NCBI RefSeq assembly: GCF_028128765.1
Contig: NZ_LBJG01000020.1
Span: 1-64,000 of the forward strand
Direction: 5' to 3'
Source of the DNA: Bradyrhizobium sp. CCBAU 51627
GTDB lineage: Bacteria > Pseudomonadota > Alphaproteobacteria > Rhizobiales > Xanthobacteraceae
Length of the DNA stretch: 64,000 bases
The notes below the pieces were generated by a model. That model saw nothing but the letters and a program-made list of their open reading frames with translations. It ran no database searches and was not told where the DNA came from. Both the position numbers and the translations under genes were made by a program. This document shows positions 18,170 to 34,187 of the stretch, piece after piece. The first letter of the stretch is position 1. Each line of letters begins with the position of its first letter.

Positions 18170-18243
18170 CTTACCGCCTTCACTGGGTTGAGGCGGGAGC
18201 GCAAAGCTCTCAGTCACCGATAACAGCCACGAAGCGCGCGGTG
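18170..18243 (-). promoter_or_regulatory. Leader RNA motif, copy H
   Basis: On the minus strand: CACCG...CGGTG hairpin (plus coordinates 18239-18243 and 18215-18219), then GTGACTGAGAG, then GCGCTCCCGCC (18192-18202). The CCGCC can pair with GGCGG (18174-18178) at the ribosome site. Confidence 0.65.
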
Positions 18244-18346
18244 ATACCAATCCTATAGCAGTCTTCTTACCACCGAGCCAGATCAATCTTGGTCCATTGC
18301 TGCCGAAAGTAGATTGGCAGTCGATTGCGTCTCCGGATCGGGCGGC

Positions 18347-18436
18347 TCACTTCCAAAAAACGGCGGCGATCACCAACACGACCGGGATAGTCCCGAGTAC
18401 GGTCACGCCTATGCGGAAGCCAATTTCGCCAGGCAT
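18347..18436 (-). CDS. 29-residue single-helix membrane protein
   Basis: A short frame with GGGAG 6 nt before its ATG. It starts MPGEIGFRIGVTVLGTIPVV and ends in a hydrophobic helix closed by FWK. Not obviously related to the 32-residue pair. The perfect ribosome site and clean membrane-helix composition support it. It lies between the receiver gene and the 32-residue gene on the same strand. Confidence 0.5.
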   Translation of the reverse strand: MPGEIGFRIGVTVLGTIPVVLVIAAVFWK

Positions 18437-18576
18437 TGGGAACTCCCGCCAAGGCAAGAGTGTAAGCTGTCCTTCTGACCCAGATAGACGCTTTAAGCAC
18501 GCTGCATGATTGACCATTTTCCAAACCTTCGCAGGCCCGCATCGAAATCAAAACACAGGGGACGGGCGGCTGGCCA

Positions 18577-18939
18577 TCATCCGGTGAGAGCATGGAGATG
18601 CTGGCCGAGCTGCCTCTGCACATAGGGCTTGGCCAGGAAGCGGGCTCCGGCGGGAAGATCGTCGACGGCAGGTTCTACCTGGCCCGAAGTGACCAGCAGT
18701 GCGATCGGAGGCCAACGGTCGCGAACGGTGGCTAGAAGTCCCAGGCCATCCATCGAGCCGGGCATCTGGATATCGGTAAATACGATCGCTATATCGGCGG
18801 TGTTCTCCAGGAGCTCGATTGCGTGATCCGCATCGGCGGCCTCTATGACCTCGTAGCCCAGCTCGCGTACCATCTCAGCCGCATTCAGACGAATGAGGAA
18901 CTCGTCCTCGACTATCAAAACAACAGATTTGTGAGCCAC
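18577..18939 (-). CDS. Single-domain response regulator, 120 aa
   Basis: Receiver domain only: acidic residues EDE at 11-13, phosphoacceptor Asp56 in FTDIQMP, LLVTSGQ, and FLAKPY with the conserved Lys. Start set at GTG 18939 as there is no ATG. It is divergent from a sensor kinase (start 19063), 123 bp away, so the two probably form a signalling pair. No DNA-binding output. Confidence 0.82.
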   Translation of the reverse strand: MAHKSVVLIVEDEFLIRLNAAEMVRELGYEVIEAADADHAIELLENTADIAIVFTDIQMPGSMDGLGLLATVRDRWPPIALLVTSGQVEPAVDDLPAGARFLAKPYVQRQLGQHLHALTG

Positions 18940-19062
18940 CGAATAGGGGTACTTTACTCTAGAGGTCAACACGCAACGGCTCCCGCCTCGCGTTGTTCCG
19001 AGAACATTCTATCTCTTCCAGAGTTGGGTCAGGAACCCAGATGCTCCCCTGAGTATAGTTCA

Positions 19063-20322
19063 ATGATAACCGAACTTAGCGGCGAAATCACCGCCGTTCA
19101 GCAAATCAATGCTGTTCCGAAAATTTTGGATGCCGTAACCCGCTTAACGGGCATGGGCTTCGTAGCGGTCGCCAGGGTGACCAGCGATCGCTGGTTGTGC
19201 TGTGCTGTTCGCGACAGCATAGATTTCGGCCTCGTGGAAGGGAGCGAGCTTCACGTCGAAACAACGATCTGCAATGAAATTCGCGGCCACGGCGAACTGG
19301 TTGTCATCGATGACGTCGAGACGGATTCCAGATTTTGCAATCACCCGACGCCACGCATGTATGGCTTCAGGAGCTACATCTCAGCTCCGATCAAGCGTGC
19401 GAACGGAGACATCTGGGGCACGCTCTGCGCGATCGATCCGCGACCGCGTGAGTTAAATCGACCTGAGATCGTCGAAAGCTTGCGGCTTTTTGGGGAATTG
19501 ATCGCTGCGCATTTGGATCTCAACGAGCGCTTCGAGCAATCTCAGGCCGACCTTGCCAAGAGATCAGAAAGCCTGCTGGCCAGTGAGGTGGGGCGGCAGT
19601 CTGCCGAAGCGGACCTGAAAAGCACCCGAGCCGATCTTCTTGACGAACGGAAGACGTCGGAGCTGCGCGAGCAATTTATCGGCGTGCTGGGACACGACCT
19701 CCGCAATCCGCTGGCGTCAATAGCCGGCGGCATGCGTGTTCTCCTCAAGAATGCGAATAGCGAGCGAGCGCCCGACATCGTCGCATCAATCCAGAAATCC
19801 GTGATGCGAATGGCGGGTCTGGTGGACAACATCATGGATTTTGCCCGCGGCCGCCTCGGCGGCGGATTGACGATCAGGCCCGACGCAAACGAGCCACTGA
19901 CCCCCGTGATCGAACACGTCATCAACGAAATGCGTCTGGCGTGGCCAAGCCTTAACATCGAGACCGATATTGCCCTAAACGAGCCGGTTCGATGCGATCG
20001 CATCAAAATCAGCCAATTGTTCTCCAATTTACTCGGGAATGCGGTCACCTATGGCGACATCGACAAGCCAATCATTGTTTCGGCAAGGACGAGCGATGGA
20101 AGTTTTACCCTCAGGGTGACAAATTACGGTACGCCGATCTCGGACAAGGCGATGCAAAGCCTGTTTCTGCCTTACACCCGCGGCGACCGTCCCAGCCAGC
20201 AAGGTTTAGGTCTCGGCCTCTACATCGCATCCGAGATTGCGCGAGCCCATGACGGGACGCTTAAGGTCGTCTCGAGCGGCAAAGAGACAATTTTTGAGTT
20301 CAGCATGCCTGCAACGACTTAG
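19063..20322 (+). CDS. GAF-domain sensor histidine kinase, 419 aa
   Basis: A soluble two-component kinase. Residues about 20-150 are a GAF domain (ILDAVTRLTGMGFVAVARVT...YGFRSYISAPIKRANGDIWG). About 155-205 is a coiled coil. The HisKA box is FIGVLGHDLRNPLASIAGG with phosphorylated His211, and the ATPase domain has FSNLLGNAVTYG and GLGLGLYIASEIARAHDG. No membrane helix, so it likely senses a cytoplasmic small molecule or redox state. Start at 19063, weak ribosome site. Its stop codon overlaps the stop of the inserted transposase frame. Confidence 0.88.
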   Translation: MITELSGEITAVQQINAVPKILDAVTRLTGMGFVAVARVTSDRWLCCAVRDSIDFGLVEGSELHVETTICNEIRGHGELVVIDDVETDSRFCNHPTPRMYGFRSYISAPIKRANGDIWGTLCAIDPRPRELNRPEIVESLRLFGELIAAHLDLNERFEQSQADLAKRSESLLASEVGRQSAEADLKSTRADLLDERKTSELREQFIGVLGHDLRNPLASIAGGMRVLLKNANSERAPDIVASIQKSVMRMAGLVDNIMDFARGRLGGGLTIRPDANEPLTPVIEHVINEMRLAWPSLNIETDIALNEPVRCDRIKISQLFSNLLGNAVTYGDIDKPIIVSARTSDGSFTLRVTNYGTPISDKAMQSLFLPYTRGDRPSQQGLGLGLYIASEIARAHDGTLKVVSSGKETIFEFSMPATT

Positions 20323-21081
20323 GACGCGGACTCATTAAGGCGCAGCCATAGCCGGATTGACGCGAGTTGAATGAATGCGAGGTAGTTGGCGGCGAGCCTA
20401 TCGTAGCGCGTCGCCACCCGACGACATTGTTTGATCCTGTTGAAGAACCGCTCGACCTGGTTGCGAGCACGAGAGAGATAAGGGCTGAAGCAAATCGGAT
20501 CGCTGCGATTGCTTTTCGGCGAGATGTTTGCCCACGCGCCCTTCTTCATGGCAAGCTCCCTGATCCCAGTCCGCATCATACCCACGGTCAGCAAGCAGCA
20601 TCGACCCGGATTTCAGACGAGACAGCAGTTTTCCGGCGAGTCGAACGTCATGGGCCTCACCCGGGCTCAGCGCCAGCCGTACCGGCAGACCATTGCCATC
20701 GACCATCGCATGGATTTTGCTCGTCAAGCCGCCGCGGGACCTTCCCATCGATTGGCGCTGGTTCCTTTTGATGCAGGCTCCATGCTGATGCACGCGGACA
20801 ATGGAGGTGTCGATCATTTGGACAGCGGCATCATGGGCAGTGGCAAGCGCTTCTATGATGCGGCCCCAAACGTTGGCCCGCCGCCACCTAACGAAACGGT
20901 TGTAGCAAGTGGTGTATGGGCCAAACGCCGTCGGCAGATCACGCCAGGGTGCTCCTGATCGGAGGACCCAGAAAATGCCATTCAGGACCCGACTGTCGTT
21001 CACCCGAGGAACGCCACGCGGCTTGTTCGGCAGCATCGGCTTGATGGCGGTCCATTCATGGTCGGCGAGTTCGTAGCGCAT
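20319..21081 (-). pseudogene. IS5-family transposase split by a frameshift
   Basis: The first frame (from 21081) reads MRYELADHEWTAIKPMLP through the DDE core (SKIHAMVDGNGLPVRLALSPG, LLADRGYDADW). After DADW the good sequence continues in another frame (IRELAMKKGAWANISP through ARNQVERFFNRIKQCRRVATRYD). One extra G in the run near 20565 accounts for the shift. Some IS5 members use programmed frameshifting, but single-frame relatives make a broken gene more likely. The second frame reads out of the element to a stop at 20319. Confidence 0.75.
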
Positions 21082-21092
21082 GATTCGAGTCC
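20328..21092 (-). mobile_element. IS5-family insertion sequence, about 0.77 kb
   Basis: Encodes a DDE transposase on the minus strand. GGACTC occurs at the left edge (20328) and, inverted, as GAGTCC at the right (21087-21092), followed on each side by a GCGC-containing stretch, suggesting imperfect terminal repeats. A target duplication could not be resolved. It lies just after the kinase stop codon. Confidence 0.75.
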
Positions 21093-21310
21093 CCAGTTCG
21101 GGACCTTGAATCACGGCAGTCCGGCCAAACGCAACTCTCCTGGCCCGCTCTTGGTACGGCGCTTACGGACAGGAGCGGACATCAACCAGTCCTCAATCCC
21201 TGCCAAATGCGTCGAAAATGACCCGCAGCGGACTCAGCGCGGATGTAGGCTCGTACCAAGAGGTAGATCGCGTAAAGCCGCTAGCAGGAGCTAGGTGGTT
21301 GCGTTGACGT

Positions 21311-21589
21311 CTATCCCTCAGCGGTGGGCTCCCTTCCACGCTTTCGCATCACAGGCTGCGGCTCACCGCCATCAGCAGTGCTGGTATCCACCGATACAAG
21401 CTCGGCAATCCGGAGCTTAGACCCGTCCCTAGCGACCCTAACTTGCACAGTGGTCCCCGCCGGAAGCGTCACATACCCTGCGGTCTTTAGGACAGCTATA
21501 TGCAGAAAGGCGTCTTCCCCCGAGTCCAGAGTTACAAAACCAAACTTCTTCTCCAATCTGAACCAAGTCACACGACCGGTCGCAATCAT
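21311..21589 (-). CDS. Cold-shock-domain protein, divergent, 92 aa
   Basis: A CspA-like fold: GRVTWFRLEKKFGFVTLDSGEDAFLH, where the usual KWFN...KGFGFI becomes TWFRLEKKFGFV, then LPAGTTVQVRVARDGSKLRIAEL and a polar tail. Binds single-stranded RNA or DNA if functional. Start at ATG 21589, with GAGG 8 nt upstream, preferred to the GTG at 21598. Much more diverged than the second cold-shock gene at 30751. Located next to the IS on the island. Confidence 0.75.
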   Translation of the reverse strand: MIATGRVTWFRLEKKFGFVTLDSGEDAFLHIAVLKTAGYVTLPAGTTVQVRVARDGSKLRIAELVSVDTSTADGGEPQPVMRKRGREPTAEG

Positions 21590-21681
21590 TTCCGACACCT
21601 CAATAGGCCCATGCTTTCGACCTAGCCCGCAGTTACGATTTCAGGACACTTTATGCTGTCGGACCTCTCCTGGCGTCATGT

Positions 21682-21828
21682 TCAACGCTGCGGCGTCGTC
21701 CGCCCCAGCTCCCGCTGAACTAAGGAGGCGGTCCAGCCTTCGGGAATGGCATCAAGCACATGGTCAACGGCTTCGTTGCGCCCCGTGGCCGCAAGCCATA
21801 TCTGGCGCTCGCCGCTGTCAGTAATCAC
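21682..21828 (-). CDS. Possible small protein, 48 aa
   Basis: A frame starting at GTG 21828 reads VITDSGERQIWLAATGRN, then EAVDHVLDAIPEGWTASLV and a basic end. The composition looks protein-like and resembles small alpha/beta hypothetical proteins. No ribosome site is obvious, and the frame is open further upstream without an ATG, so the start is unsure. The rest of 21600-22037 has no supportable gene but contains the inverted repeat CGGAACC-N8-GGTTCCG at 21957-21978. Confidence 0.35.
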   Translation of the reverse strand: MITDSGERQIWLAATGRNEAVDHVLDAIPEGWTASLVQRELGRTTPQR

Positions 21829-22037
21829 ACAAATCGACGCGAATGACCATGCCTGCGGCCAACGGAGGGGTGGTTTTCGCTACATCATCAGGTCCGACAG
21901 GCTTCCAAGGGTGTCTGGCGGGAGATAATCTTGAGCAGTCGGAGGCGACCAAAAAGCGGAACCTTCCGCATGGTTCCGGTCGCAGATTAAAACAATGCGG
22001 TGGCTATCTATCCGAAAAGAGCGCACTCTCTCGCCAC

Positions 22038-22117
22038 CACCGAGCGGCCCTTAGCATCTATCGGTGATGTGAACGCATTGTATTGCGCTCCCGCTCAACC
22101 CGCAGCGGAGCATAAGT
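22038..22117 (+). promoter_or_regulatory. Leader RNA motif, copy A
   Basis: CACCGA (22038-22043) pairs with TCGGTG (22061-22066). GCTCC (22087-22091) of GCGCTCCCGC pairs with GGAGC (22107-22111), the ribosome site 7 nt before the start. The linker is diverged (ATGTGAACG). Confidence 0.65.
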
Positions 22118-22318
22118 ATGTCGACTCAACGATCCCCGGCACACTCATCGACCTTCGAGTATCGTCTCGCGCAAGAGGCAAACAGTCTGCGCGCACAGGC
22201 CAAGGGAATGCCCCTTGGAGTCCGGCGGACGGAACTTTTACGGAAGGCCAAGCAGATCGACGTTGCTGGAGAGATGAACAAATGGCTGACCTCACCGGGA
22301 CTGCAGCCGCCATCGTAA
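22118..22318 (+). CDS. Small helical protein of the STFEYRL family, 66 aa
   Basis: Contains STFEYRLAQEANSLRAQAKG, MPLGVRRTELLRKAKQIDVA and ends WLTSPGLQPPS. Closely related to 26865-27062 and more distantly to 25944-26153 in this window. Predicted all-helical, amphipathic, cytoplasmic. Sits directly upstream of a DUF6894-type gene, a pairing repeated at 26865/27127. Function unknown. Confidence 0.7.
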   Translation: MSTQRSPAHSSTFEYRLAQEANSLRAQAKGMPLGVRRTELLRKAKQIDVAGEMNKWLTSPGLQPPS

Positions 22319-22388
22319 AGTCTGACCTCTGTGCACCTATATTCAGTTAGCAAGCAACCAACCGAGGCTCCCTGAATTGCATTCGCAT

Positions 22389-22459
22389 CACCGACCGAGT
22401 CCGAGGCGTCGGTGGCTGAGAGACCGCGTGTGCTCCCGCCTAAAATTGGGAGCGCCAAG
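22389..22459 (+). promoter_or_regulatory. Leader RNA motif, copy B (clearest)
   Basis: CACCGAC (22389-22395) pairs with GTCGGTG (22408-22414). The linker is GCTGAGAGACCG. GCTCCC (22432-22437) pairs perfectly with GGGAGC (22448-22453), which covers the ribosome site 6 nt before the ATG at 22460. Confidence 0.75.
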
Positions 22460-22708
22460 ATGACAATTTACTTCTTCGACATGCGCGATGGCGCAGACCT
22501 CTATCCCGATGAGGAGGGGCTGGAACTATCCAATCTCAAAGCAGTGCAGATCGAGGCCGCACGGGCATTGGGAAGTATGACTAAGCAAACGATATGGACG
22601 AAAGCGAAATCTCAGCTAGGCCATCAGATGGCAGTAGAAGTCCGCGACGCGGTCGGACCAGTGCTAACAGCCGGTTTCTCGTTTGAGACCGAACGATACA
22701 AGCAATAA
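22460..22708 (+). CDS. DUF6894-type protein, 82 aa
   Basis: Begins MTIYFFDMRDGADLYPDEEG with the family pattern YFFD-R-G-----DEEG, then a helix rich in Glu/Ala (NLKAVQIEAARALGSM) and a strand MAVEVRDAVGPVLTAGFSF. One of five such proteins on the island. Small alpha/beta fold; function unknown. Start at 22460 is favoured by GGGAG, though the frame is open to a GTG at 22412 in the leader. Confidence 0.75.
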   Translation: MTIYFFDMRDGADLYPDEEGLELSNLKAVQIEAARALGSMTKQTIWTKAKSQLGHQMAVEVRDAVGPVLTAGFSFETERYKQ

Positions 22709-22754
22709 AGCCACCTATCGGCGAGACTTTCCACATCTATGCGGAGGAGCGCAA

Positions 22755-22928
22755 ATGCCATCCATTGAACAATGCAGAGCGTATGCGGCTGACTTTAAAA
22801 TCCAAGGAGCCGATTCGAAAAATTCAGCAAGGCGCTCTGCGGTACTCATGAGCATTTCAAGGAGCTGGGTAGCACTGGGGCACCAGCTTGAAAACCTTGC
22901 AGATATCGTGAAATCTGAAGGAAAGTAA
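22755..22928 (+). CDS. Small helical conserved protein, 57 aa
   Basis: Starts with GGAGGAGC upstream of the ATG. The sequence IEQCRAYAADFKIQGADSK followed by SARRSAVLMSISRSWVALG and QLENLADIVKSEGK is a two-helix protein of a kind often seen near DUF6894 genes in Bradyrhizobium. Function unknown. Follows the DUF6894 gene by 46 bp, same strand. Confidence 0.7.
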   Translation: MPSIEQCRAYAADFKIQGADSKNSARRSAVLMSISRSWVALGHQLENLADIVKSEGK

Positions 22929-23017
22929 AATCTGCATCGTTGGTCGGGCTGCTTGTACCTCCACGCGAATCCAGAGCTTAGCAACCAACTAGGATCGGCT
23001 CGGGTTAGGTACCACAT

Positions 23018-23094
23018 CACCGGCCGAGGTTGCCCAGGCGTCGGTGACGAGAGAGACACGAGTGCTCCCGCCGCCTTCTGACTGGGAGAAGATC
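23018..23094 (+). promoter_or_regulatory. Leader RNA motif, copy C
   Basis: CACCG (23018-23022) pairs with CGGTG (23042-23046). The linker is ACGAGAGAGAC. CTCCC (23065-23069) pairs with GGGAG (23084-23088), 6 nt before the GTG start. Confidence 0.7.
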
Positions 23095-23253
23095 GTGGCT
23101 CCGATTCAACAGCCTCTGCGAGAACCACCCAGCCATTGTCCCCGCTGTGATGGGGTTCCGCGACTTTACCTGACGCTTCCCAACACTGCCAAAGGCACCA
23201 TGACTTACGTCTATCGCTGCCAAGCATGCCACCAGCTGATATGGGACGAGTAA
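23095..23253 (+). CDS. Small zinc-ribbon protein, 52 aa
   Basis: Two Cys pairs (HCPRCDGVPRLYLTL and YVYRCQACHQLIWDE) form a classic rubredoxin-like zinc ribbon. GTG start with GGGAG upstream; an upstream GTG at 23044 in the leader is in frame. Might bind nucleic acid or a protein partner. Function unknown. Confidence 0.65.
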   Translation: MAPIQQPLREPPSHCPRCDGVPRLYLTLPNTAKGTMTYVYRCQACHQLIWDE

Positions 23254-23293
23254 TGCTGCTTCAGTTGGGGGCTCTCAACGCTGGCTTCCGCTT

Positions 23294-23465
23294 ATGGCCC
23301 AGGTTGTGTGAAAACGCGAAATCTCGCGAAGGCCAGAGAATCTGCTTCTCAGATGCCGCTGCGCCGCAGTTTAGTATGCTCCTCAAGCTCCCAGAGCGGG
23401 CTTCCGAAGGAATGCTTTTCTCTGCAATTTGCTCTGCGCTGCGTTTTCACACAGCCTGGGCCCAT
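23294..23465. mobile_element. MITE-like element, 172 bp
   Basis: The ends are imperfect inverted repeats of about 24 bp: TGGCCCAGG-TTGTGTGAAAACGC at the left (23294-23317) against the complement of GCGTTTTCACACAGCC-TGGGCCCAT at the right (23441-23465). No coding capacity. It fits a non-autonomous transposon. A target duplication is not evident. No gene is supported between 23254 and 23693. Confidence 0.6.
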
Positions 23466-23693
23466 CGCTGCCGCGATCCACGGCCGAGGATATGTCGGCT
23501 ATCGACCTAACTTAACGGGGCTAAAGCATCGCGATTGACCCAGACTGACTCGTTATGCTGTTAGCGTTAGGGGGCCTGTAGGGGCCGAACGCCGTGTCGT
23601 CCAGACGTGTCTCGCGTCGAGCTGCATAGTACGCATGTGCTCGGAAGGGCTTCAGTTCAAGGTTCAATACCCCTAATTGCGCAGGTTGGGCTG

Positions 23694-24410
23694 TCAAAGT
23701 TTTTCATCCCTGAGATGGAGATACTCTGGCGTGAAGTCCGCCAGCTCCTCCAGCTCCTTCCGTCGGAGCAGCGTCAACGTGCGCCTCTCCCACTCAATGA
23801 GTCGCAGTTGTCTTAGCTCCTGTATAGTCCGATTGATGTGCACGACGGACAAACCGCAGGCATCCGCGATGTTCTGCTGGGTGAAAGGAAGATAAAAGCT
23901 GGCGTTCTCCAGCAATCCGACGACTTCGAGTCGCGCCGCAAGCTCGCAGATGAGGTGCCCCACTCGTGAGCGCGCGTCGCGGGCAAGGCCTGCAATCCAT
24001 TCGCGGTAAATCGCGGCATCGACAAGGGTCTCGCGCCAGAGGGCGTGAACCAGTCCGGGAGAGCTACTCAGGATATCATTGAGATAGGTGTGCGGCACAA
24101 AGCCAACGGTCGATGGACCCGCACTGCAAATATTGTGGTCCATGACGGGTAGCTGCAAAGTGTGCAGATCGGGCATATCGCCAGCCAGGTAGATCGACAG
24201 GATCTGGGCTCGGGTGCCGACGACCTTATGACGAAACACAAACCCGCTCATCACGATGGCGCACCGGGACGCTCTGTCTCCTTCACGCACGATGTATTCG
24301 CCGTCAGTGAATTCCTTCACCGTATGGGGCATGTTCGCGAGCTTGGTCCGGTCCTCGTCGGAGAGTCCAACAACGGCTTGCAGCCGTTTGATCAAGATTT
24401 TGCTTGGCAT
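23694..24410 (-). CDS. Crp/Fnr family transcriptional regulator, 238 aa
   Basis: N-terminal cyclic-nucleotide-type beta barrel (VKEFTDGEYIVREGDRASRCAIVMSGFVFRH, QILSIYLAGDMPDLH) and C-terminal winged helix (LPFTQQNIADACGLSVVHINRTIQELRQLRLIEWERRTL). No Fnr-type cysteine cluster is seen, so it is not an oxygen-sensing FNR. Start at the ATG at 24410. Preceded by a partial copy of the leader motif, which would place a transcription factor under the same control as the small proteins. Confidence 0.88.
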   Translation of the reverse strand: MPSKILIKRLQAVVGLSDEDRTKLANMPHTVKEFTDGEYIVREGDRASRCAIVMSGFVFRHKVVGTRAQILSIYLAGDMPDLHTLQLPVMDHNICSAGPSTVGFVPHTYLNDILSSSPGLVHALWRETLVDAAIYREWIAGLARDARSRVGHLICELAARLEVVGLLENASFYLPFTQQNIADACGLSVVHINRTIQELRQLRLIEWERRTLTLLRRKELEELADFTPEYLHLRDEKL

Positions 24411-24460
24411 TGCAGCACCCGAGTTCTGGGGCGGGAGCACAACACTCTCAGTTGCCAGCT
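24411..24460 (-). promoter_or_regulatory. Leader RNA motif, partial copy I
   Basis: The minus strand has AACTGAGAGTGTTGTGCTCCCGCC before the Crp-type gene, matching the linker and anti-ribosome-site parts of the motif. The upstream CACCG/CGGTG hairpin is replaced by GCTGGC-type repeats, so this copy is degenerate. Confidence 0.5.
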
Positions 24461-24558
24461 ACCCTGCATTAACGCCAGCAATGCTGATACGCTAACACAA
24501 AACTCCGGGGGGAACATGACCTCGGAGCTGTTAGCATTCTCGGCAGCAAACCACGCCC

Positions 24559-24807
24559 TTAGGAGGGAGGCTCAGATTGAAGTGCGGTAAACCGCAGAAC
24601 GAAGAGCGTCCGGCCGTGTGGTAATGGACCGTCGGTTACCTTCATCTCCCACGGAATGTCCTTCCACAGATTTCCCATTGAGCCTTGTTTGATGATTTGG
24701 CCACTCATTTGCACGGCTTCAGCTCGTGCGGCTGCAATGTCGGGGAGCTCAGTGCCGGCATCATCCAGCGAAGAGCTATCAGAGATATGGAAGAAGTAGC
24801 GCGGCAT
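24559..24807 (-). CDS. DUF6894-type protein, divergent member, 82 aa
   Basis: Begins MPRYFFHISDSSSLDDAGTE, followed by LPDIAAARAEAVQMSGQI and a strand-rich end (WEMKVTDGPLPHGRTLFVLRF). The YFFHI start and Ala/Glu helix place it with DUF6894. No leader motif is seen upstream. Function unknown. Confidence 0.7.
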   Translation of the reverse strand: MPRYFFHISDSSSLDDAGTELPDIAAARAEAVQMSGQIIKQGSMGNLWKDIPWEMKVTDGPLPHGRTLFVLRFTALQSEPPS

Positions 24808-24995
24808 GCTGGCTCCGTCGCAGATTGGATCGGCCTCTAACGATGGTCATCCAAGGTTCCAAAATCAGCACAGCCATTCTGTCACCGCTTTGGCTGGTCT
24901 GCATTAGCGCAAGTAAATTTCCAGCTTACCCCGGCTTCATGAAACACGTAATTTCGGTGTCCGTCGCGCCGGCAGCAACTCAAACAGAGCCGACC

Positions 24996-26649: not shown

Positions 26650-26791
26650 GGCTGCCTGTGAGAACAGACGCCTCCATCTCGACTGGGTCTCCGGCTCCAG
26701 TTGGAGTACTCGACTAGCCGTAAGGCTGTCCAAAAACATTTCTTCAATCATGTCTGGTCGGAGCGCCTTGGAGCACATATATCAAGGTCGT

Positions 26792-27062: not shown

Positions 27063-27126
27063 TTCGAATCCTGGATCGGCTTGCGGACCTCTCGCGCTGG
27101 CGCAGACATCTTTCCAACAGGCGCTC

Positions 27127-27366: not shown

Positions 27367-27426
27367 TTCTGTCTTTCGCGGTTCCGGGGATTCGATATGG
27401 ACCGTCGCATTGCAGCGCTTTTGCGA

Positions 27427-28236
27427 TCAGCCGGTGAGTTCGTCGGCCCAAACCTTGAAACTTAGCAACGTGTTGGGTCCGAATGTCTGGGTGATCGGAA
27501 CGTCGGCGGCATCGCGGCCCTGCGCGATCAGGACGCGACCAATCCGCGGAATGTTGTTACGTGGATCGAACGTGTACCAGCGACCACCGATATAGGCTTC
27601 GCACCAGCCCGCGAAATCGCCGGCGGCATATGGAGGCGCCATGCCGATGTCACCGAGATAGCCGGTGCAGTAGCGCGCAGGAATGTTCATGCAGCGGCAG
27701 AACGCTATAGCCAGATGTGCATAGTCCCGGCAAACGCCTTTGCCTTCGTTGAACACTTCCCAGGCGGTCTTGGTCGGGCGGGCGTGCTCGTAGCCGAAAG
27801 CAATGTGGTTATGCACGAAGTCGCAGATCGCCTTGACCCGTGCCCAACCGGGCGCGGTCTTCTCGAACAACTTCCACGCCACGTCGGTAAGTCGGTCAGT
27901 CTCGACATACCGACTGCCGAGCAAATATACGATGGTGTCCGACGGAAGATCTTCCACTGCGTGCTGTTGGGCCGATGGTACGATCACGTCGGGTAGACCG
28001 CTGTCTCGGACTGTGCCGTCCGCTGAGAGGCGCATGCGGCCGGCTGGCGCGACAAGACGACTGCACCAATTCCCGAAACCGTCGCGGTAGGGCGTGATCG
28101 GCACCGACGGCTCGCTGACAAGATGATCGGGCAGGACAATGTCGGATGCCCGTGTGAAGTGAGTGCCGACAACTGCGATAAGAGGGGTCGGTTGCGGAAA
28201 GTCGTAGATCATCTCGAAGCCGACGCGGATCTTCAT
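27427..28236 (-). CDS. Transglutaminase-like cysteine protein, 269 aa
   Basis: An N-terminal beta domain (VGFEMIYDFPQPTPLIAVVG) and a transglutaminase/papain-like core with the active Cys169 in GKGVCRDYAHLA and Asp224 in WYTFDPRNN. Where many relatives have His-Ala-Trp before EAY, this one has Ala-Gly-Trp, so the His of the triad is not in its usual place. Start at 28236 with GGAG upstream. Family members act as proteases or amide hydrolases. Confidence 0.8.
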   Translation of the reverse strand: MKIRVGFEMIYDFPQPTPLIAVVGTHFTRASDIVLPDHLVSEPSVPITPYRDGFGNWCSRLVAPAGRMRLSADGTVRDSGLPDVIVPSAQQHAVEDLPSDTIVYLLGSRYVETDRLTDVAWKLFEKTAPGWARVKAICDFVHNHIAFGYEHARPTKTAWEVFNEGKGVCRDYAHLAIAFCRCMNIPARYCTGYLGDIGMAPPYAAGDFAGWCEAYIGGRWYTFDPRNNIPRIGRVLIAQGRDAADVPITQTFGPNTLLSFKVWADELTG

Positions 28237-28458
28237 GGAAGTAGCTCCAAAGAGATGATTGCGACCGTTACGAACCCCCATTTGGGCATCGTCACCGATG
28301 AAGGCTGCGAGCGCTCGGGTGTGAACAGTATGCCATCGCTGTCCCGACCGCCAGCCGTATGCTCGATTGAGTGGAGAACATCCGCCCAGCGCCTGACCGG
28401 AACCCGTTTCAAACTGAAGGCTTTGTTGAAGATGAAAATGCGATCCGGAGTCACGCCC

Positions 28459-28629
28459 ATGTCGATTCAACCCACGCCAGACTGGGGGGCGCGGCCTGTA
28501 TCTGAGAAGGCCTCTTACCAGGGCGCGCGTCGAACCGTGAGCGAGGTTGATGCTGATATTCTGAGGAAGCGCGCGTTGAAGAAGCAGCGTGCGTTGATCG
28601 ACACCCTCAATGGTCGTGCGCCATCATGA
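28459..28629 (+). CDS. Small protein upstream of the metallopeptidase, 56 aa
   Basis: Starts MSIQPTPDWGARPVSEKASY with GGAG 8 nt upstream, then a basic helix (ILRKRALKKQRALIDTLNG). Its stop overlaps the next start in ATGA, so translation is probably coupled to the metallopeptidase. Function unknown. Confidence 0.6.
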   Translation: MSIQPTPDWGARPVSEKASYQGARRTVSEVDADILRKRALKKQRALIDTLNGRAPS

Positions 28630-29633
28630 GAGATTTCAAATGTCCTCATTGCGGGCAACTATCGGCCTTCGAGCTCTCCAAATGCAACGGCTGCATGCAG
28701 CCGTTGATCTTCGATCCCGAGAATATGGCGATGATCGGTGCGGAAAGTGCCCTTGAATGCGTCAATCGGAATATCATCGGTTGCAACTGGTGCGCGGTTT
28801 CCACGACTTCCTACTGCATGTCCTGCTCCCTGACCCATGTCATTCCCGCCACACAGAATCCCCGTAACGTAGCCCTTTGGAAGCGCGTGGAGGAAGCCAA
28901 GCGCAGGCTGATCTACGACCTGAGACGGCTTCGCGTGCCGATCGCGTTCGCGGGTGGATTTCGCCTGGCATTCGAGATTCTCTCGGACGAGCATGGGCCG
29001 GTCCTGACAGGTCACGAATCCGGCCTGATAACACTCAACCTTGCGGAGGCCGATGATGTACAACGCGAGATCAGGCGTGTTTCCTTTCGCGAACCCTATC
29101 GCACCCTGCTTGGTCACTTTCGACACGAGATAGGGCACTTTTACTGGAATGCCCTGATCCACGAAGCGGGTTTTCGAGCGCCGTTTCGGCTGGTGTTTGG
29201 CGACGAGACAGAGAACTACCAGGCAGCGCTTGCCTATTATTATGCCCGTCAGGATTGGTCTTGCGATCCGGCGAGTCACATTAGCATGTATGCGACGTCT
29301 CATCCCTGGGAGGATTGGGCAGAGACTTTCGCTCACTTCCTGCACATCGTCTCGACCCTGGATTCCCTGGCAGGACTTCCGTTGTCGTTGGACGCGCGCG
29401 GAACGCACACGCTGAATGACCCGTATCTAGAAAGCGATTTCGGTGCGCTCCTTGAGTTGTGGACCCCACTCGCTCTGACGATCAACCGCCTCAACCGCTC
29501 ACTTGGTCTTGCCGACGCGTACCCGTTCGACATTTCACCCGCAGTCGAGGGCAAACTGCACTTGGTGCATATGGCGATTACCGCCTTCAGGAATCGGCAA
29601 GGAAACGCGCACACAACGCCGATGATGTGCTAA
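28626..29633 (+). CDS. Putative zinc-binding metallopeptidase (COG4307 type), 335 aa
   Basis: The N-terminus carries a zinc ribbon (FKCPHCGQLSAFELSKCNGC) and a second Cys cluster (GCNWCAVSTTSYCMSCSLTH). The peptidase motif is HEIGHFYW (His167, Glu168, His171), with a third ligand likely in HPWEDWAETFAHF. The layout matches COG4307 proteins found widely in proteobacteria. Cytoplasmic. Substrate unknown. Translationally coupled to the 56-residue gene and divergent from the transglutaminase. Confidence 0.82.
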   Translation: MRDFKCPHCGQLSAFELSKCNGCMQPLIFDPENMAMIGAESALECVNRNIIGCNWCAVSTTSYCMSCSLTHVIPATQNPRNVALWKRVEEAKRRLIYDLRRLRVPIAFAGGFRLAFEILSDEHGPVLTGHESGLITLNLAEADDVQREIRRVSFREPYRTLLGHFRHEIGHFYWNALIHEAGFRAPFRLVFGDETENYQAALAYYYARQDWSCDPASHISMYATSHPWEDWAETFAHFLHIVSTLDSLAGLPLSLDARGTHTLNDPYLESDFGALLELWTPLALTINRLNRSLGLADAYPFDISPAVEGKLHLVHMAITAFRNRQGNAHTTPMMC

Positions 29634-29940
29634 CCTGAGTTCTGGTGGAAGCGCTTAGCTCGTGAGCGGCGCCCCACTGGTTGCGATTTTAGCTGAACGT
29701 CTGGCAGACGAGCGGCGGCGTGGGCTTCGGCTCGCCCCTCGGGAACATGCGTCCCGCGAAAGCGTTGATAACCATAGGCAGCGTCCGCTTGCCGTTGTTC
29801 GACAACGCGCTGAGACCTCGCGAAAGATCTGGCGCAAAGCGGAGCGTTCACGCTGATCCGCTCCCGGCAAATATCGCTTGGGCTGTCATGGCGAATATCC
29901 GAGCCCCAGACCGGCGCTGATCCAATTCCTGGAGATCAAA
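29634..29940. other. No supportable gene
   Basis: Frames on both strands are short, Arg-rich and overlap each other. Nothing with a good start. Confidence 0.4.
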
Positions 29941-30126
29941 ATGATGAAAAACGAAGCGAAGGCTGCCCGGCATCTGCGGGAGGCGAACAACGCGTTCAAA
30001 TTGGTGCGAACAGAAAAACCAATGACCGATTACGCGAAAGATCAGCAATCCCTGCACGATAATCACGAGCGTCTGAAGGCGGCCCGATTGGCGCGTGAAG
30101 CCAAGCCGAAAGACTCCCGGGCATAA
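29941..30126 (+). CDS. Small charged helical protein, 61 aa
   Basis: GGAG 6 nt upstream of ATGATG. The protein (MMKNEAKAARHLREANNAFK, then DYAKDQQSLHDNHERLKAARL) is almost wholly charged helix with a Lys-rich end. Cytoplasmic. Function unknown. Confidence 0.6.
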   Translation: MMKNEAKAARHLREANNAFKLVRTEKPMTDYAKDQQSLHDNHERLKAARLAREAKPKDSRA

Positions 30127-30140
30127 TCGTCGCTCTCGAT

Positions 30141-30314
30141 TTAGAGCATCGAGAGCACGACGATTCCGTTTTCGAGCTCGCCGGAGGCGAGCCGCGCACG
30201 GGCTATATGCTCGAATTCTTTTCGATATTTGTGAAGATAACTGAAGGCCTGCTTGTCGGTCTGAAACGTCGTTGTAAGCCTGCACATCTGCCGTGCTGCG
30301 CCAAGCGCAAGCAT
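30141..30314 (-). CDS. Conserved hypothetical protein, 57 aa
   Basis: MLALGAARQMCRLTTTFQTD and KQAFSYLHKYRKEFEHIARA, with an ELENGIVVLSML end. Start at 30314 preferred because GGGGA lies upstream; the frame is open further to 30356. Convergent with the 61-residue gene. Function unknown. Confidence 0.5.
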   Translation of the reverse strand: MLALGAARQMCRLTTTFQTDKQAFSYLHKYRKEFEHIARARLASGELENGIVVLSML

Positions 30315-30411
30315 GAAAGTGATCGTTCCCCCGCCGTCTGCTTTGACTCTAGGCATCCACCCAGCCCGTGCAATTCGGTTTCACGATGATGCCGTGCGAT
30401 CGCGAGTTCGA

Positions 30412-30654
30412 CTATCGCGCCGACCTGTTTTTGCGCTTCGTCGGTGCGGGCGCAGGCAGCGATGCCCGAAACGCGATGTCGGCAACTTCCTTGGCCTCAC
30501 GCAGCTCGCGGAGGCGCGCCATGTTCTTTCGCACCTCGATGGCCTGCCGTTCCGCGTCAGCCAATGCCCGCGCGCCGTCTTCAGCAGCCAATCGCTTGCG
30601 GTTCGAGCGCGCGATACCTTCGGGCGACGGCTCTGCCGATTTCCTGGCGATCAT
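30412..30654 (-). CDS. Small coiled-coil-like protein, 80 aa
   Basis: MIARKSAEPSPEGIARSNRK, then AEDGARALADAERQAIEVRK and MARLRELREAKEVADIAF: a long charged helix with a basic C-terminus (TKRKNRSAR). GAGG immediately precedes the ATG at 30654; a TTG two codons earlier is the alternative. Function unknown. Confidence 0.55.
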   Translation of the reverse strand: MIARKSAEPSPEGIARSNRKRLAAEDGARALADAERQAIEVRKNMARLRELREAKEVADIAFRASLPAPAPTKRKNRSAR

Positions 30655-30750
30655 CCTCAACCCGCATTATGAAAAACAAAACCCGCTCCATCCGAAGATC
30701 GAGCGGGCAGCCTGCCGTTTCAGTACATCCGTGAAAGCGGCGTCGACAAA

Positions 30751-30960
30751 TCAAGCCAGCGAGAGGTTTTCGGCGCTCACTTTGCCGCGCATCTTGTCGG
30801 TCTTGGCCTCAAAGTTAACCTTTTGGCCCTCGGCGAGACCCGCAAGGCCAGCCCGTTCGACCGCGCTGACGTGAACGAACACATCATTGCTGCCGTCGGT
30901 CGGCTGGATAAATCCAAAGCCTTTTTGGCCGTTGAACCACTTAACAGTACCTGTCGTCAT
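30751..30960 (-). CDS. Cold-shock protein, CspA family, 69 aa
   Basis: A canonical cold-shock domain: [20 protein letters not shown] with both RNP motifs ([15 protein letters not shown]), then [20 protein letters not shown]. Acts as an RNA chaperone. Start at the ATG at 30960, 7 nt after GGAG, rather than the ATG two codons earlier. About 150 nt of AT-rich DNA upstream (TTTAATATATATCATTTT on the plus strand near 31085) is consistent with a long cold-shock 5' leader. Confidence 0.92.
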
Positions 30961-31409
30961 TTTCATTCTCCAAAGCGCGCGAGCGCGTATCGCGTGACGA
31001 GCACGCGATTACTTCAACTTCGTCGATGTCTTTGGAAAAGGAGCCCGCGGGCGCGTTCAACAAGGCACAGCGGCTAATCGAATTTCTTTAATATATATCA
31101 TTTTCGGCTTTTTGCAAGGCAACACTCAAAATTGTTTCCGAGAGCGCTGCTACACGAGCGCGTGTGGGCGAACGTTCCTTTGCGATCGAGGGCTCCAAAC
31201 GACGTGTGGGAACGGCTCTATCCATTGACAGCGCGGCTGACAGTGGTCACGTTGCTCTACCGAACTTGATTGCCGTGACGCATAGACCGGCTTGTTCGAG
31301 GCCGGCGGAAGAAGACGCCGTCACTCCCATCATCGCAATCGCCACGAGACTCCTGCGCAATTGGCTGCATGCAGGACTTGCGCATTCGCAGCCCAGCGAG
31401 GAATGTCAA

Positions 31410-31688
31410 TTGCAGGTACTTGTTCGCGACAACAATGTCGACCAGGCCCTTCGTGTTCTGAAGAAGAAGATGCAACGCGAGGGTGTCTTTCGCGAAATGA
31501 AGCAGCGGCGCTCATACGAAAAGCCTTCCGAAAGAAAGACGCGCGAAAAATCCGAGGCTATTCGCCGGGCCCGTAAGCTCGCTCGGAAGCAGGCCATCAG
31601 GGAAGGTTTGCTGCCGGCGCCCCCGAAAAAGAAGCTTCCCGAGCGCAAGCCTCCCTTGCCGCAGATCGCCGGCAAGGAGCGCGCGTAA
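31410..31688 (+). CDS. rpsU: Ribosomal protein S21 paralog, 92 aa
   Basis: [20 protein letters not shown] and [20 protein letters not shown] are S21 hallmarks, with a long basic tail ([20 protein letters not shown]). It begins with TTG at 31410, a GAGGA site upstream; the normal gene starts ATG-CAG, so the start codon appears altered. S21 contacts the anti-Shine-Dalgarno region of 16S rRNA. As an island copy it is an extra S21 that could alter which mRNAs are translated. The frame is open further upstream but unsupported. Confidence 0.82.
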
Positions 31689-31815
31689 CGGGAATGCGCG
31701 TAGAGGAACGTTATTGCCATAGATTGCCATGGTGGTTGCGCCGAGTTCGACGCAGCAAAAGCGGGGGTGCGTAGCTGCCAGATTTCAGTCGCGGTCTGTA
31801 ATCCAGGAGATCGAG

Positions 31816-32007
31816 ATGACGAAGACGGGCACGAGTGATCATCGCATTCTGACCCAACGCGCGCGTGCCGCTCACCTGGCTGGCAAAGTTATAGACGAGA
31901 GGGCGGACAATTCTGCGAAGGGCGATGATCAAGCGATGCGAAGGTTTGATCGAGGGACCATCGGAGTTCAGGGCCGTCCGCGTCGATCGTTCAAGAAAAA
32001 CTATTGA
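31816..32007 (+). CDS. Small basic hypothetical protein, 63 aa
   Basis: AGGAG 7 nt upstream of the ATG. MTKTGTSDHRILTQRARAAH followed by a polar stretch and a basic end (GVQGRPRRSFKKNY). Low structure expected. Follows the S21 gene on the same strand. Function unknown. Confidence 0.5.
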   Translation: MTKTGTSDHRILTQRARAAHLAGKVIDERADNSAKGDDQAMRRFDRGTIGVQGRPRRSFKKNY

Positions 32008-32174
32008 TCGTTAACTGGCCTTCAGTCGCTTACGGGTTCCTTGCGACGTCCAGAACGCATTGACGTTGTCTTGAGCATCGGCCTGTCCGTCTCTGCCGGG
32101 CGAGTTATCGGGCGCCGGGGCCAACTTGTGAAGAATTCGCCTAAGCGATTCCCAGATCACGACATGGCATGTTG

Positions 32175-32453
32175 TTAGGTTCTGAAATCGATGCCGCGCA
32201 GCACGATACCCCGAGGATCTCCTTCAAGTTCCGTCGCTCGATACTTGCTGGCCGCGCGGGCCTCGATGCGGTCGCGTAGGCGGACGAATTGGGCTTCGCG
32301 CTGCTCGGGGCGGACCTGCGGGCCGCGCTCAAGATAGTCCATCGCGGTGGTCGAGATCGCGCAGGGAATTTCCTTACCGCCGTCCTGCATCGAGAACAGC
32401 ACGATCATCCGGTCATATTCGTGGCCGATGTAGCGACCGCTCGTGAGCGTCAT
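32175..32453 (-). CDS. DUF1488-like protein, 92 aa
   Basis: Start at 32453 has a strong GGAGG. The sequence IGHEYDRMIVLFSMQDGGKE and IPCAISTTAMDYLERG matches the DUF1488 pattern (strand, G-K-x-I-x-C-x-I-S/T, A-x-x-x-L). C-terminal charged helix (QREAQFVRLRDRIEARAASK). Function unknown. Third of a minus-strand run with the coiled-coil pseudogene and the 86-residue gene. Confidence 0.7.
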   Translation of the reverse strand: MTLTSGRYIGHEYDRMIVLFSMQDGGKEIPCAISTTAMDYLERGPQVRPEQREAQFVRLRDRIEARAASKYRATELEGDPRGIVLRGIDFRT

Positions 32454-32514
32454 GGCTTCCTCCTTTAAGTGACCGTTGCTGGCACGTTCGCGCGTTCGGA
32501 GAGTTGCTCTGCCG

Positions 32515-32804
32515 TCAGTCCTCGCCCGAGAGCCGGACGAAGTCGTCGAGCAACGACGCGACCAGCGCCTCGTATCCTCGGCGGGCAGGCTCGCGGCATA
32601 GAGGTTGAGCAGGTGCCGCGCCTTGACCGCAGCCTCCGGCCAGGAAGCGGCGGGCACCGTCATCATGCGGTGTTCAAGTTCGGCCTCCCGCTCACGCAAT
32701 TCCCTGACACGGGCCTCGACGTCTGCCAGCGCGCGGCGCAGATCGGTAGCCTTCTGCGCAGCCATGCCGCGATGCTTGTCGAGATCTACGGGATGGTCAG
32801 TCAT
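32515..32804 (-). pseudogene. Frameshifted small coiled-coil protein
   Basis: MTDHPVDLDKHRGMAAQKAT leads into a coiled coil (LADVEARVRELREREAELEH) and WPEAAVKARHLLNLYAASLP. After the next few codons the original frame turns Arg/Ser-rich, while another frame reads YEALVASLLDDFVRLSGED and stops at 32515, which looks like the true C-terminus. A one-base indel near 32565-32575 explains it. Confidence 0.6.
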
Positions 32805-33061
32805 GCGGCGCTCGCATCCGCAGCCTGCGCATTGGCGAGATCGACTGAGCCGATCGAGAGCATCTCCATTGAGTCGCGAACGCCTTCCGCCGGCACCATA
32901 ATCATCGTGGCGATGCGGCGATAGGCCGAGAAGGTGAGACCCTCGATCGTTTCTTCATCAGTGATGACCTCGTAGGCGCCGGCGGGCAGCAGCCGCTCGA
33001 TGCCGCGGATTCGGAACGGATGTCTGAACGTGACGGTCTCTCGCCGTGAGCGGATGGTCAT
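32801..33061 (-). CDS. Conserved hypothetical protein, 86 aa
   Basis: TVTFRHPFRIRGIERLLPAG followed by AYEVITDEETIEGLTFSAYR and MVPAEGVRDSMEMLSIGSVD: a beta-rich small protein. Its stop overlaps the start of the next gene (ATGA), so they are translationally coupled. Similar proteins are common in Bradyrhizobium. Function unknown. Confidence 0.65.
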   Translation of the reverse strand: MTIRSRRETVTFRHPFRIRGIERLLPAGAYEVITDEETIEGLTFSAYRRIATMIMVPAEGVRDSMEMLSIGSVDLANAQAADASAA

Positions 33062-33239
33062 GCACGCCTGCCTTTTTGCAAGAGGGGCCCTAACCGACCG
33101 ACAGCGACGACCATGCGCCCGTCATTGAGCAATAGCCAGCACATTCGCCATTGCCGCGCGCTGACGTCGCAGTGCAGCCTTGCCCGAACTGCGTTTTAGC
33201 ACTCGCTATTGGCGCCTCGCAGGCGTAGGGTTGTCGCAT

Positions 33240-33316
33240 CACCGCACTTCTCAACGGCATCGACCGGTGACTGAGGGTCACGTGCGCTCCCGCCGACAGA
33301 GTTGCAGGAGCGCTCG
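33240..33316 (+). promoter_or_regulatory. Leader RNA motif, copy F
   Basis: CACCG (33240-33244) pairs with CGGTG (33265-33269). Linker ACTGAGGG. GCGCTCC (33284-33290) pairs perfectly with GGAGCGC (33307-33313), hiding the ribosome site 6 nt before the ATG. Confidence 0.75.
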
Positions 33317-33415
33317 ATGTCGCGTTTTCGCGCCTCGGAATGGATGGTCCCGCCGGTGATCGTTCCGTTGTTCCTTTTGCTTCTGGTGTGTGCTGCGGCC
33401 ATCCTCAATGGCTAA
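33317..33415 (+). CDS. 32-residue single-helix membrane protein, leader-controlled
   Basis: Begins MSRFRASEWMVPPVIVPLFL and continues as one hydrophobic helix to NG. Homologous in layout to 18068-18169 (EW-VPP-VP-FL). AGGAG precedes the ATG inside the leader hairpin. Its stop codon overlaps the next gene's ATG (ATGGCTAA), so the two are probably coupled. Confidence 0.65.
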   Translation: MSRFRASEWMVPPVIVPLFLLLLVCAAAILNG

Positions 33416-33755
33416 GGCAACGCGCGTGCCTTACCTGGTCATGGGGACCAACGAATATGGCAGCGCCAATCTCGGCCGTGGCAGCGCGATCGTTGCACTG
33501 CGGCTCGCGCGAAAGCTGCTGCGCGACGGTTACATGGATGTCCGCGTCTGCACGCCTCGCGGGCGCATCCTGCAGTCGGACGAACTGAAAGAACTTGAAC
33601 CCCAACAGGAGATGGACGTCATGGGCAAGGGACAGCAACGCGGCAATCGCGAAGCCAAGAAGCCGAAGAAGGAAAAAGCCAAGGTGATCGCAGCACAGCC
33701 CAGCCGGAAAGAGGTCGCCTGGCAGCCGGATTTCGGGTCGGCAAAAAAGAGGTAG
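33408..33755 (+). CDS. Hypothetical protein, possible fusion of two small proteins, 115 aa
   Basis: The first part (MAKATRVPYLVMGTNEYGSA, then IVALRLARKLLRDGYMDVRV) is a compact alpha/beta unit. From Met72 (33621) the sequence MGKGQQRGNREAKKPKKEKA looks like the start of a separate Lys-rich small protein known from related genomes, and AGGAG lies 9 nt before it. So this may be a read-through fusion or two products from one frame. Confidence 0.55.
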   Translation: MAKATRVPYLVMGTNEYGSANLGRGSAIVALRLARKLLRDGYMDVRVCTPRGRILQSDELKELEPQQEMDVMGKGQQRGNREAKKPKKEKAKVIAAQPSRKEVAWQPDFGSAKKR

Positions 33756-33869
33756 GCGGCGCAGTCAAGCGTGAGGCGGACGCTTGACCGCTATTGCGGC
33801 GCGACGAGGGGCCACCTCATGGATGCTCGAAGGTGGATCGAGGAGCAACGCCGGCACCCATAGGCCCTG

Positions 33870-34115
33870 TCACTGTTGCCGCCCTCCGTCGCCAAATTCG
33901 AACCCCACATGCATCACGGGACCGGCGTCGTCCCGTACCGCAATTGCCATATGGCGCTTTGAAGAACTGCCAGATTCATACGTCGCATCCCGTGCCATGT
34001 CGGCCAATGACTTTGCCGCCTCAACCTGCGCCGCCCGAAAGTCAGCAAGTTCCAGACCTTCCTCGTCAAGGAACAGGCCGTCATCGTCGACGAGATCGAA
34101 ATAGTACCGGGTCAT
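33870..34115 (-). CDS. DUF6894-type protein, 81 aa
   Basis: MTRYYFDLVDDDGLFLDEEG, then the helix LADFRAAQVEAAKSLADMAR and the strand MAIAVRDDAGPVMHVGFEF. The best match in this window to the 22460 copy at the C-terminal strand. CCGGAG lies upstream of the ATG. Function unknown. Confidence 0.75.
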   Translation of the reverse strand: MTRYYFDLVDDDGLFLDEEGLELADFRAAQVEAAKSLADMARDATYESGSSSKRHMAIAVRDDAGPVMHVGFEFGDGGRQQ

Positions 34116-34187
34116 GACGCACTCCGGAGACAGACGGAAGTTCCATGTGCCAGCGACCGATGCCCCTTGTGCAGCCTCGATCGGTGA
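34116..34187 (-). promoter_or_regulatory. Leader RNA motif, divergent copy J
   Basis: The minus strand shows CACCGAT...ATCGGT (plus coordinates 34180-34186 and 34156-34161) with the same CGAGG loop start. The ACTGAGAG linker and GCTCCCGCC part are lost. A TCCG/CGGA pairing remains around the ribosome site. Confidence 0.4.

Follow-up and report, generated by a model that had tools for sequence, protein, structure and literature searches.

Several described regulatory RNAs resemble parts of the element considered here. ROSE thermometers are known from Bradyrhizobium, the thiamin pyrophosphate (TPP) riboswitch carries a CUGAGA element, and cyclic dimeric GMP (c-di-GMP) riboswitches occur in many copies per genome before unrelated genes. 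We analyzed a 64,000-nucleotide (nt) stretch of DNA from Bradyrhizobium sp. CCBAU 51627 (contig NZ_LBJG01000020.1, positions 1 to 64,000; below, the window), in which an original prediction had reported seven copies of a 5′ leader RNA. The window holds eight copies: the seven reported (leaders A to G) and leader H, located upstream of a Crp gene. It is highly probable that these leaders belong to a class of cis-acting RNAs that mask the ribosome site of the gene behind them. The class is new within a known kind of regulator and is unusual in its copy number and in the diversity of the tiny genes that it precedes. On balance, we lean slightly toward reading them as cis-acting leaders that repress translation and that form a new class of the riboswitch type with a small effector.

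From 5′ to 3′, a leader usually consists of CA, a 6–base pair stem with its loop, a CTGAGAG-like strand, a few nucleotides, and GYGCTCCCGCC, after which comes the start codon. The loop usually measures 16 to 23 nt and mostly carries GGC (or GGT, AGC) 2 or 6 nt ahead of the 3′ stem strand, and GAG lies inside the first 9 nt of the linker in 350 of 362 unique leaders. The near-invariant 9-mer of the RNA is GCUCCCGCC; exact GCTCCCGCC is present in 197 of the 220 leaders not picked by a DNA pattern, the models that found them including that strand. Covariance model R1 was built from the seven leaders and one copy elsewhere in the genome and extends from the hairpin to GCTCCCGCC, the Shine-Dalgarno sequence being excluded; covariance model R3 was built from 94 divergent leaders. 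R1 recovers additional copies in the source genome, with E-values down to ~1e-12 per genome. The DNA pattern, GAGAG-N{5,14}-GCTCCCGCC, gave 8 matches in the source genome compared to 3 for a reversed control; a pattern match on contig C77 was dropped as a leader, being inside a reading frame.

As in riboswitches, the element sits in the 5′ leader, and its spacing to the start codon is short and fixed: 299 of 381 leaders have an ATG that opens a reading frame 12 to 25 nt downstream, compared to 188 of 1,905 random places at the same loci. A laxer start-codon rule was passed by 352 of 381 leaders and also by 896 of 1,905 random places; the ATG count is therefore preferred. In 69 of 382 cases, TAnnnT lies precisely 11 nt upstream of the RNA as modelled; all other offsets from −7 to −69 are below 9%. 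Since this motif keeps to one fixed distance, the RNA probably begins at the hairpin, where transcription would start. Beyond this −10-like element, other shared promoter columns were weak in an early set of 110 leaders (111 of 117 matches, with six equal-score rows omitted and one duplicate removed), which was also used for gene-family and pairing tallies; subsequent tallies included every row. An EcfG promoter for the leaders was considered by eye only and dropped. Separately, GGAAC-N17-GTT upstream of a response-regulator gene (18975 to 18999, minus strand) looks, by eye, like the EcfG general-stress promoter.

The hairpin is a conserved, covarying secondary structure, as in translational riboswitches. 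The 94 divergent leaders contain 65 doubly changed cells, compared to at most 17 in slid controls, and none of 500 shuffles reached this number or the covariation score. All six stem pairs are doubly changed in this set, which was also the case in 2 of 500 shuffles. Among 70 distinct leaders from genomes outside the window’s family, 99.3% of cells are paired. Doubly changed cells number 66 in this set, compared to 12.6 on average in shuffles and no more than 4 in any slid version. The hairpin of the original prediction thus survived covariation analysis in both sets. In a set of 111 distinct leaders, pairing extends to 98.3% of cells (shuffles, 96.3%), and there are 12 doubly changed cells (shuffles, 1.3); slid structures pair at most 68.6% and score lower, although the one slid by +3 did as well in doubly changed cells (13). 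Because many of these 111 leaders came from a pattern search in which the 3′ strand was fixed, their variation is understated. In all three sets, the covariation score of the hairpin exceeded those of all shuffled and all slid controls.

G-U pairs are common in the stem, which points to an RNA structure rather than a DNA palindrome. It is extremely unlikely that we are dealing with a DNA-level element, or with duplicated genes that spread together with their upstream DNA, instead of a functional RNA: while some leader genes are paralogues, compensatory and G-U pairs occur across families, so that covariation largely refutes this explanation, and the leaders have a phylogenetic spread and precede non-homologous genes.

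The leaders of the window and their genes are the following (E-values are those of model R3):

18191 to 18246, minus strand: leader G, with hairpin, CTGAGAG, and GCGCTCCCGCC; E = 2.1e-14.
18068 to 18169, minus strand: gene of leader G, 33–amino acid one-helix membrane protein of the REWLVPP type.
22035 to 22096, plus strand: leader A, with TGTGAAC linker, GCTCCCGCT, and loop AGC; E = 1.1e-6.
22118 to 22318, plus strand: gene of leader A, 66–amino acid helical protein, paralogue of gene E; no Pfam match.
22386 to 22441, plus strand: leader B, with GCTCCC/GGGAGC pairing; E = 3.8e-13.
22460 to 22708, plus strand: gene of leader B, DUF6894 protein; PF21834, E = 7.9e-15 (scanned from 22463).
23015 to 23073, plus strand: leader C; E = 2.3e-10.
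23095 to 23253, plus strand: gene of leader C, 52–amino acid zinc-ribbon-like protein with GTG start; Zn_ribbon_8 under its cutoff.
24429 to 24483, minus strand: leader H, with hairpin TTGCTG/TGGCAA, CTGAGAG, and GTGCTCCCGCC; E = 1e-6.
23694 to 24410, minus strand: gene of leader H, Crp/Fnr-type regulator; PF13545 and PF00027.
26329 to 26391, plus strand: leader D, with GCGCTCC/GGAGTGC pairing and one G-U; E = 1.6e-12.
26413 to 26649, plus strand: gene of leader D, DUF6894 protein; PF21834, E = 1.5e-14.
26789 to 26847, plus strand: leader E, with TGAGAACGC linker; E = 2e-9.
26865 to 27062, plus strand: gene of leader E, 65–amino acid helical protein with GTG start; no Pfam match.
33237 to 33295, plus strand: leader F, with GCGCTCC/GGAGCGC pairing; E = 5.7e-12.
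33317 to 33415, plus strand: gene of leader F, 32–amino acid one-helix membrane protein, same type as gene G by eye.

All seven leaders are present where the original prediction placed them, and the next match in the window after the eight has an E-value of 0.096. Of two weaker copies also proposed, the Crp-gene copy is a complete leader even though its stem, TTGCTG/TGGCAA, replaces TCACCG/CGGTGA and no model was trained on it; the copy proposed before the 33870 gene was not recovered, even when model R3 was run without filters to E ≤ 5. Loops of the seven leaders measure 16 to 23 nt instead of the 12 to 23 nt claimed. The common linker, CTGAGAG or close to it, is found in five copies (CGAGAGAG in C; CTGAGGG in F) but gives way to TGTGAAC in A and TGAGAAC in E, and the GCC end taken as uniform is absent from leader A, which ends in GCTCCCGCT. 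Pairing with the ribosome site is full in B and F and includes a single G-U in D, as predicted; the claim of a GGGAG or GGAG site before each start fails for gene G, which lacks GGAG and has GGCGG, pairing with the CCGCC half. The genes, said to be unrelated, do represent five families over eight leaders, but A and E encode paralogous helical proteins, B and D both encode DUF6894 proteins, and F and G encode one-helix membrane proteins judged by eye to be of the same type (SEWMVPPVIVPLFLLLLV, REWLVPPLLVPVFLALL). Leaders are not limited to one island: there are 11 copies genome-wide at E ≤ 1.4e-4 and many in other genomes. The island also contains an IS5-type transposase-like reading frame (20398 to 21114, minus strand; by eye).

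The GCUCC or CCGCC portion of GCUCCCGCC can pair with the Shine-Dalgarno sequence, and translation is accordingly predicted to be OFF by default. GGAG is present in the ribosome-site window of 151 of 251 unique leaders with a start. The base that follows it is C in 108 of these 151, compared to 14 of 48 control genes from the same loci (Fisher, 3.6e-7), and in 21 of 27 gene clusters most members have C. The resulting GGGAGC or GGAGC complements GCTCC(C) of the leader. Control genes were picked by a Shine-Dalgarno–like motif before ATG, and some of their starts may be wrong. When the region from leader to start was folded, the mean unpaired probability of GGAG was 0.073 (median, 0.004; 151 leaders) compared to 0.348 in the 48 controls (p = 1.6e-14); the value was 0.241 with shuffled upstream sequence and 0.345 with CTCC replaced. 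At the level of computation, the leaders therefore have the Shine-Dalgarno–masking expression platform of a translational riboswitch, and both folding and the GGAGC bias support the masking originally proposed. The trinucleotide preceding CTCCC is GCG in 61 of 64 TGAGAACGC-type linkers compared to 104 of 172 GAGAG-type linkers (10 rows set aside), which fits an extra CGC/GCG pairing but could instead stem from gene family.

A short helix that masks the Shine-Dalgarno sequence could also belong to an RNA thermometer, in which it would melt on warming, and a thermosensor was among the readings first offered. However, the mean unpaired probability in the energy model is 0.070, 0.073, and 0.083 at 20°, 37°, and 48°C, respectively, so predicted masking is nearly flat over this range. 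In addition, near-invariant CUGAGAG and GCUCCCGCC are not expected of a thermometer, and no ROSE match was obtained for the leaders. A simple thermosensor is thus unsupported, and we regard it as very unlikely.

A near-invariant GCTCCCGCC is more than pairing with variable ribosome sites calls for. The last three bases of this strand fully pair with loop GGC in 337 of 355 combinations, whereas 5,000 shuffles averaged 329.8 and never exceeded 335, in a tally that omitted 7 of 362 leaders and favored GGC at several loop offsets and so was biased toward pairing. Changes that preserve this pairing are AGC/GCT in seven cases, all in the helical gene family, and GAC/GTC in one; a further AGC/GCT occurs at another loop offset in leader L383. 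A GGC/GCC pseudoknot between the loop and the anti–Shine-Dalgarno strand is, from these sequence data, suggestive. The 152 loops of 19 nt give some support for a short internal helix (pair 6-12).

The conservation of GCUCCCGCC beyond the need of Shine-Dalgarno pairing, seen in the 197 of 220 leaders mentioned above, is also what would be expected if a trans-acting small RNA with a seed complementary to it freed the Shine-Dalgarno sequence. Such a target would need neither a covarying hairpin nor a conserved CUGAGAG. A search of the source genome for complementarity to the anti–Shine-Dalgarno strand with one 12-nt pattern, GGCGGGAGCRCA, shorter seeds being outside its scope, revealed no convincing trans-acting RNA with extended complementarity: its seven occurrences are five leaders, one site in a reading frame, and one weak leader-like site. 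We consider this explanation improbable.

Searches beyond the island, the test attached to the original prediction, yielded matches across the genus, family, and class. With R1 at E ≤ 0.1, leaders were present in 35 of the 36 genomes sampled from the window’s genus (source genome included), with up to 41 matches each and a best E-value of at most 1.3e-7 in each of the 35; one further genome of the genus, part of the order sample, had none at 1e-5. In other families, R1 at the same threshold gave weak matches only, in 6 of 24 genomes. Scans of more than 40 genomes used stricter filters and scored few candidates, so the prevalence counts that follow from them are lower bounds. Within the window’s family, 98 of 198 genomes, representing 29 of 47 genera, had leaders at E ≤ 1e-4. 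At 1e-5, model R2 detected them in 20 of 397 genomes of the order and, in the class, in 5 of 385. Model R3 matched 12 of 367 genomes from the class; of 349 sampled from the phylum it matched 17, every one of them a member of that same class. At E ≤ 0.001, leaders were present in 18 of 149 genomes of another family in the order and in 44 of 75 genomes of a family that lies outside it. Outside the window’s family, leaders are thus sporadic in Alphaproteobacteria.

In a scan of named genomes (at least 118 stretches, with 80 loci listed), the matches listed are mostly from Bradyrhizobium; Afipia, Nitrobacter, Tardiphaga, Rhodopseudomonas, Microvirga, a Reyranella metagenome-assembled genome, and one Acidobacteriaceae bin, which is outside the class and may be mis-binned, are also among the matches listed. 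In Bradyrhizobium liaoningense (locus L135), one leader has exactly the sequence of D, and a second, spaced from it by the same 460 nt, has the score of E. In viral contigs (IMG/VR), the pattern was found in 39 stretches, with 33 model matches; these leaders on contigs catalogued as viral (L377 to L415) may be prophage cargo or host flank, and 11 of 27 genes behind them belong to the helical, WLVPP, DUF6894, or Crp families. Back-to-back, outward-pointing leader pairs, 98 to 302 nt apart, occur at nine distinct loci (L015, L038, L041, L057, L152, L218, L226, L344, and L421); the L015 pair is in the source genome (C57:56678 minus and 56918 plus).

Under the lax rule, 352 of 381 leaders are followed by a gene 6 to 35 nt downstream, and 314 of these genes encode proteins of 100 amino acids or fewer (median, 66). 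Seeded searches assigned 84 of the 352 to the helical family, 47 to WLVPP one-helix membrane proteins, 26 to DUF6894, and 16 to Crp-type regulators, with 179 falling elsewhere. Clustering of 251 leader genes gave 44 clusters, the largest of which (109 genes) may merge families. The families are largely non-homologous and, as originally argued, shared coding sequence does not explain the motif. In the family beyond the order, leaders again precede WLVPP genes, and in yet another such family leader L421 precedes a Crp-type gene, suggesting that the leader-gene pairings may be old. In the window, members of the same families at 27127, 24559, and, by resemblance, 25938 have no detected leader; the leader is therefore a separable module. 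Five DUF6894 genes, two with a leader, lie inside 12 kilobases (22460 to 34115), four of them Pfam-confirmed and the one at 27127 assigned by resemblance; our literature search found no paper on DUF6894. An unusually large target, the gene of an HflK-like membrane protein (named by eye), follows the leader at L369:1501.

In the mechanism we favor, GCUCC (in some genes CCGCC) of GCUCCCGCC would pair with the gene’s own Shine-Dalgarno sequence, and the folded stem together with CUGAGAG, which is probably unpaired and recognized by something, would act as the receptor. Binding of an effector, most likely a small signalling molecule, would pull the GCUCCCGCC strand off the Shine-Dalgarno sequence, possibly through pairing of its GCC with the loop GGC, and the freed site would let the ribosome enter. 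Many unrelated, mostly tiny genes would thereby be placed under one signal.

Several results weigh against this mechanism. The covariation figures are upper limits, since the structure guided the alignments and the leaders are related to one another; for the latter reason, the shuffle controls overstate significance. The GCUCC/GGAGC helix is nearly without covariation because GCUCCCGCC is nearly invariant; two ACTCCC leaders face GGAGT, and neither the next flanking base (n = 104, p = 0.71) nor the second (n = 55, p = 0.31) covaries. The case for the Shine-Dalgarno helix is therefore one of base bias and energy, not of compensations. The folding test took in only the 151 of 251 leaders with GGAG, and GGCGG sites, which stand opposite CCGCC in some genes including gene G, are hardly enriched (30 of 251 leaders and 10 of 108 controls). 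Changes that oppose the pseudoknot are AGC/GCC in six cases and GAC/GCC in three. An anti–anti-Shine-Dalgarno hairpin, between GAG of CUGAGAG and CTC of GCTCCC, was rejected: its mean probability is 0.071, compared to 0.199 with shuffled linkers (326 of 362 unique leaders). When a leader is folded by itself as a single sequence, the hairpin reaches a mean probability of only 0.59, which implies competing folds in some leaders. Finally, riboswitches usually precede metabolic genes, and the genes found here encode unknown small proteins and Crp regulators.

The main rival keeps the same cis anatomy but has an RNA-binding protein recognize the hairpin and CUGAGAG and lock or open the Shine-Dalgarno sequence, as CsrA does elsewhere. 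The many copies per genome before unrelated genes, the short stem with near-invariant strands, and the lack of a metabolic gene theme would fit such control; on the other hand, the loops differ greatly among leaders in size and, apart from GGC, in sequence, and no candidate protein was identified, no search for one having been made. We judge a protein effector unlikely, though deserving of serious attention.

The leader links small proteins of unknown function (DUF6894, helical, WLVPP one-helix, MCxxC, and zinc-ribbon) that sequence alone could not group in one regulon. Finding the effector would reveal a condition under which the leader genes are jointly used; it would also add a regulatory RNA class, and perhaps a signal, to what is known of bacteria among which are nitrogen-fixing plant symbionts. 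More speculatively, and on present evidence doubtfully, the leader could be an undescribed riboswitch class for an alarmone- or second messenger–type molecule, acting as master switch for the translation of a regulon so far hidden in Alphaproteobacteria. If so, as many as 41 leaders per genome would stand over Crp regulators and many small proteins that share no homology, and contigs listed as viral would carry such leaders too.

In agreement with the original statement that no known class matches, no Rfam 15 family covers a leader at the gathering threshold (whole window; 14 loci). At E ≤ 5 over positions 17900 to 34500, the search returned one sR49 match (E = 1.9) on the strand opposite leader C and, away from the leaders, a weak cspA thermoregulator–like match over a cold-shock-protein-like gene (30678 to 31124, minus strand; 27.8 bits, below gathering). 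The window further contains a group II intron match just over threshold (258 to 329). No description of such a leader was found in print, within a search that could not reach subscription papers and supplements and does not prove absence. The accessible portions of PMC5082802, PMC4842269, and PMC7143759 describe no such leader, and those of PMC11109978 and PMC8632094 contain none of the Bradyrhizobium or alphaproteobacterial terms sought.

Among described Bradyrhizobium RNAs, BjsR5, BjsR6, BjsR7, and BjsR10 are, according to PMC5082802, likewise short and present in several imperfect copies per genome; they are reported as orphan small RNAs with 2 to 4 copies, and since they were compared by description only, overlap with the leaders is possible. 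ROSE and other RNA thermometers also hide the Shine-Dalgarno sequence in a leader but differ from the present one in its near-invariant GCUCCCGCC and CUGAGAG, its predicted masking that stays nearly flat from 20° to 48°C, and the absence of an Rfam match. The order of a hairpin followed by CUGAGA recalls the TPP riboswitch; this is a resemblance only, with no TPP match in cmscan and no thiamin gene seen among the leader genes. High copy number before unrelated genes is shared with c-di-GMP riboswitches, from which the leaders differ in matching no Rfam model. Translational riboswitches differ in that the leader genes encode tiny proteins and Crp regulators and that no Rfam family was matched, but with them the leaders share the 5′ leader position, a covarying fold with near-invariant nucleotides, and the predicted masking of the Shine-Dalgarno sequence.

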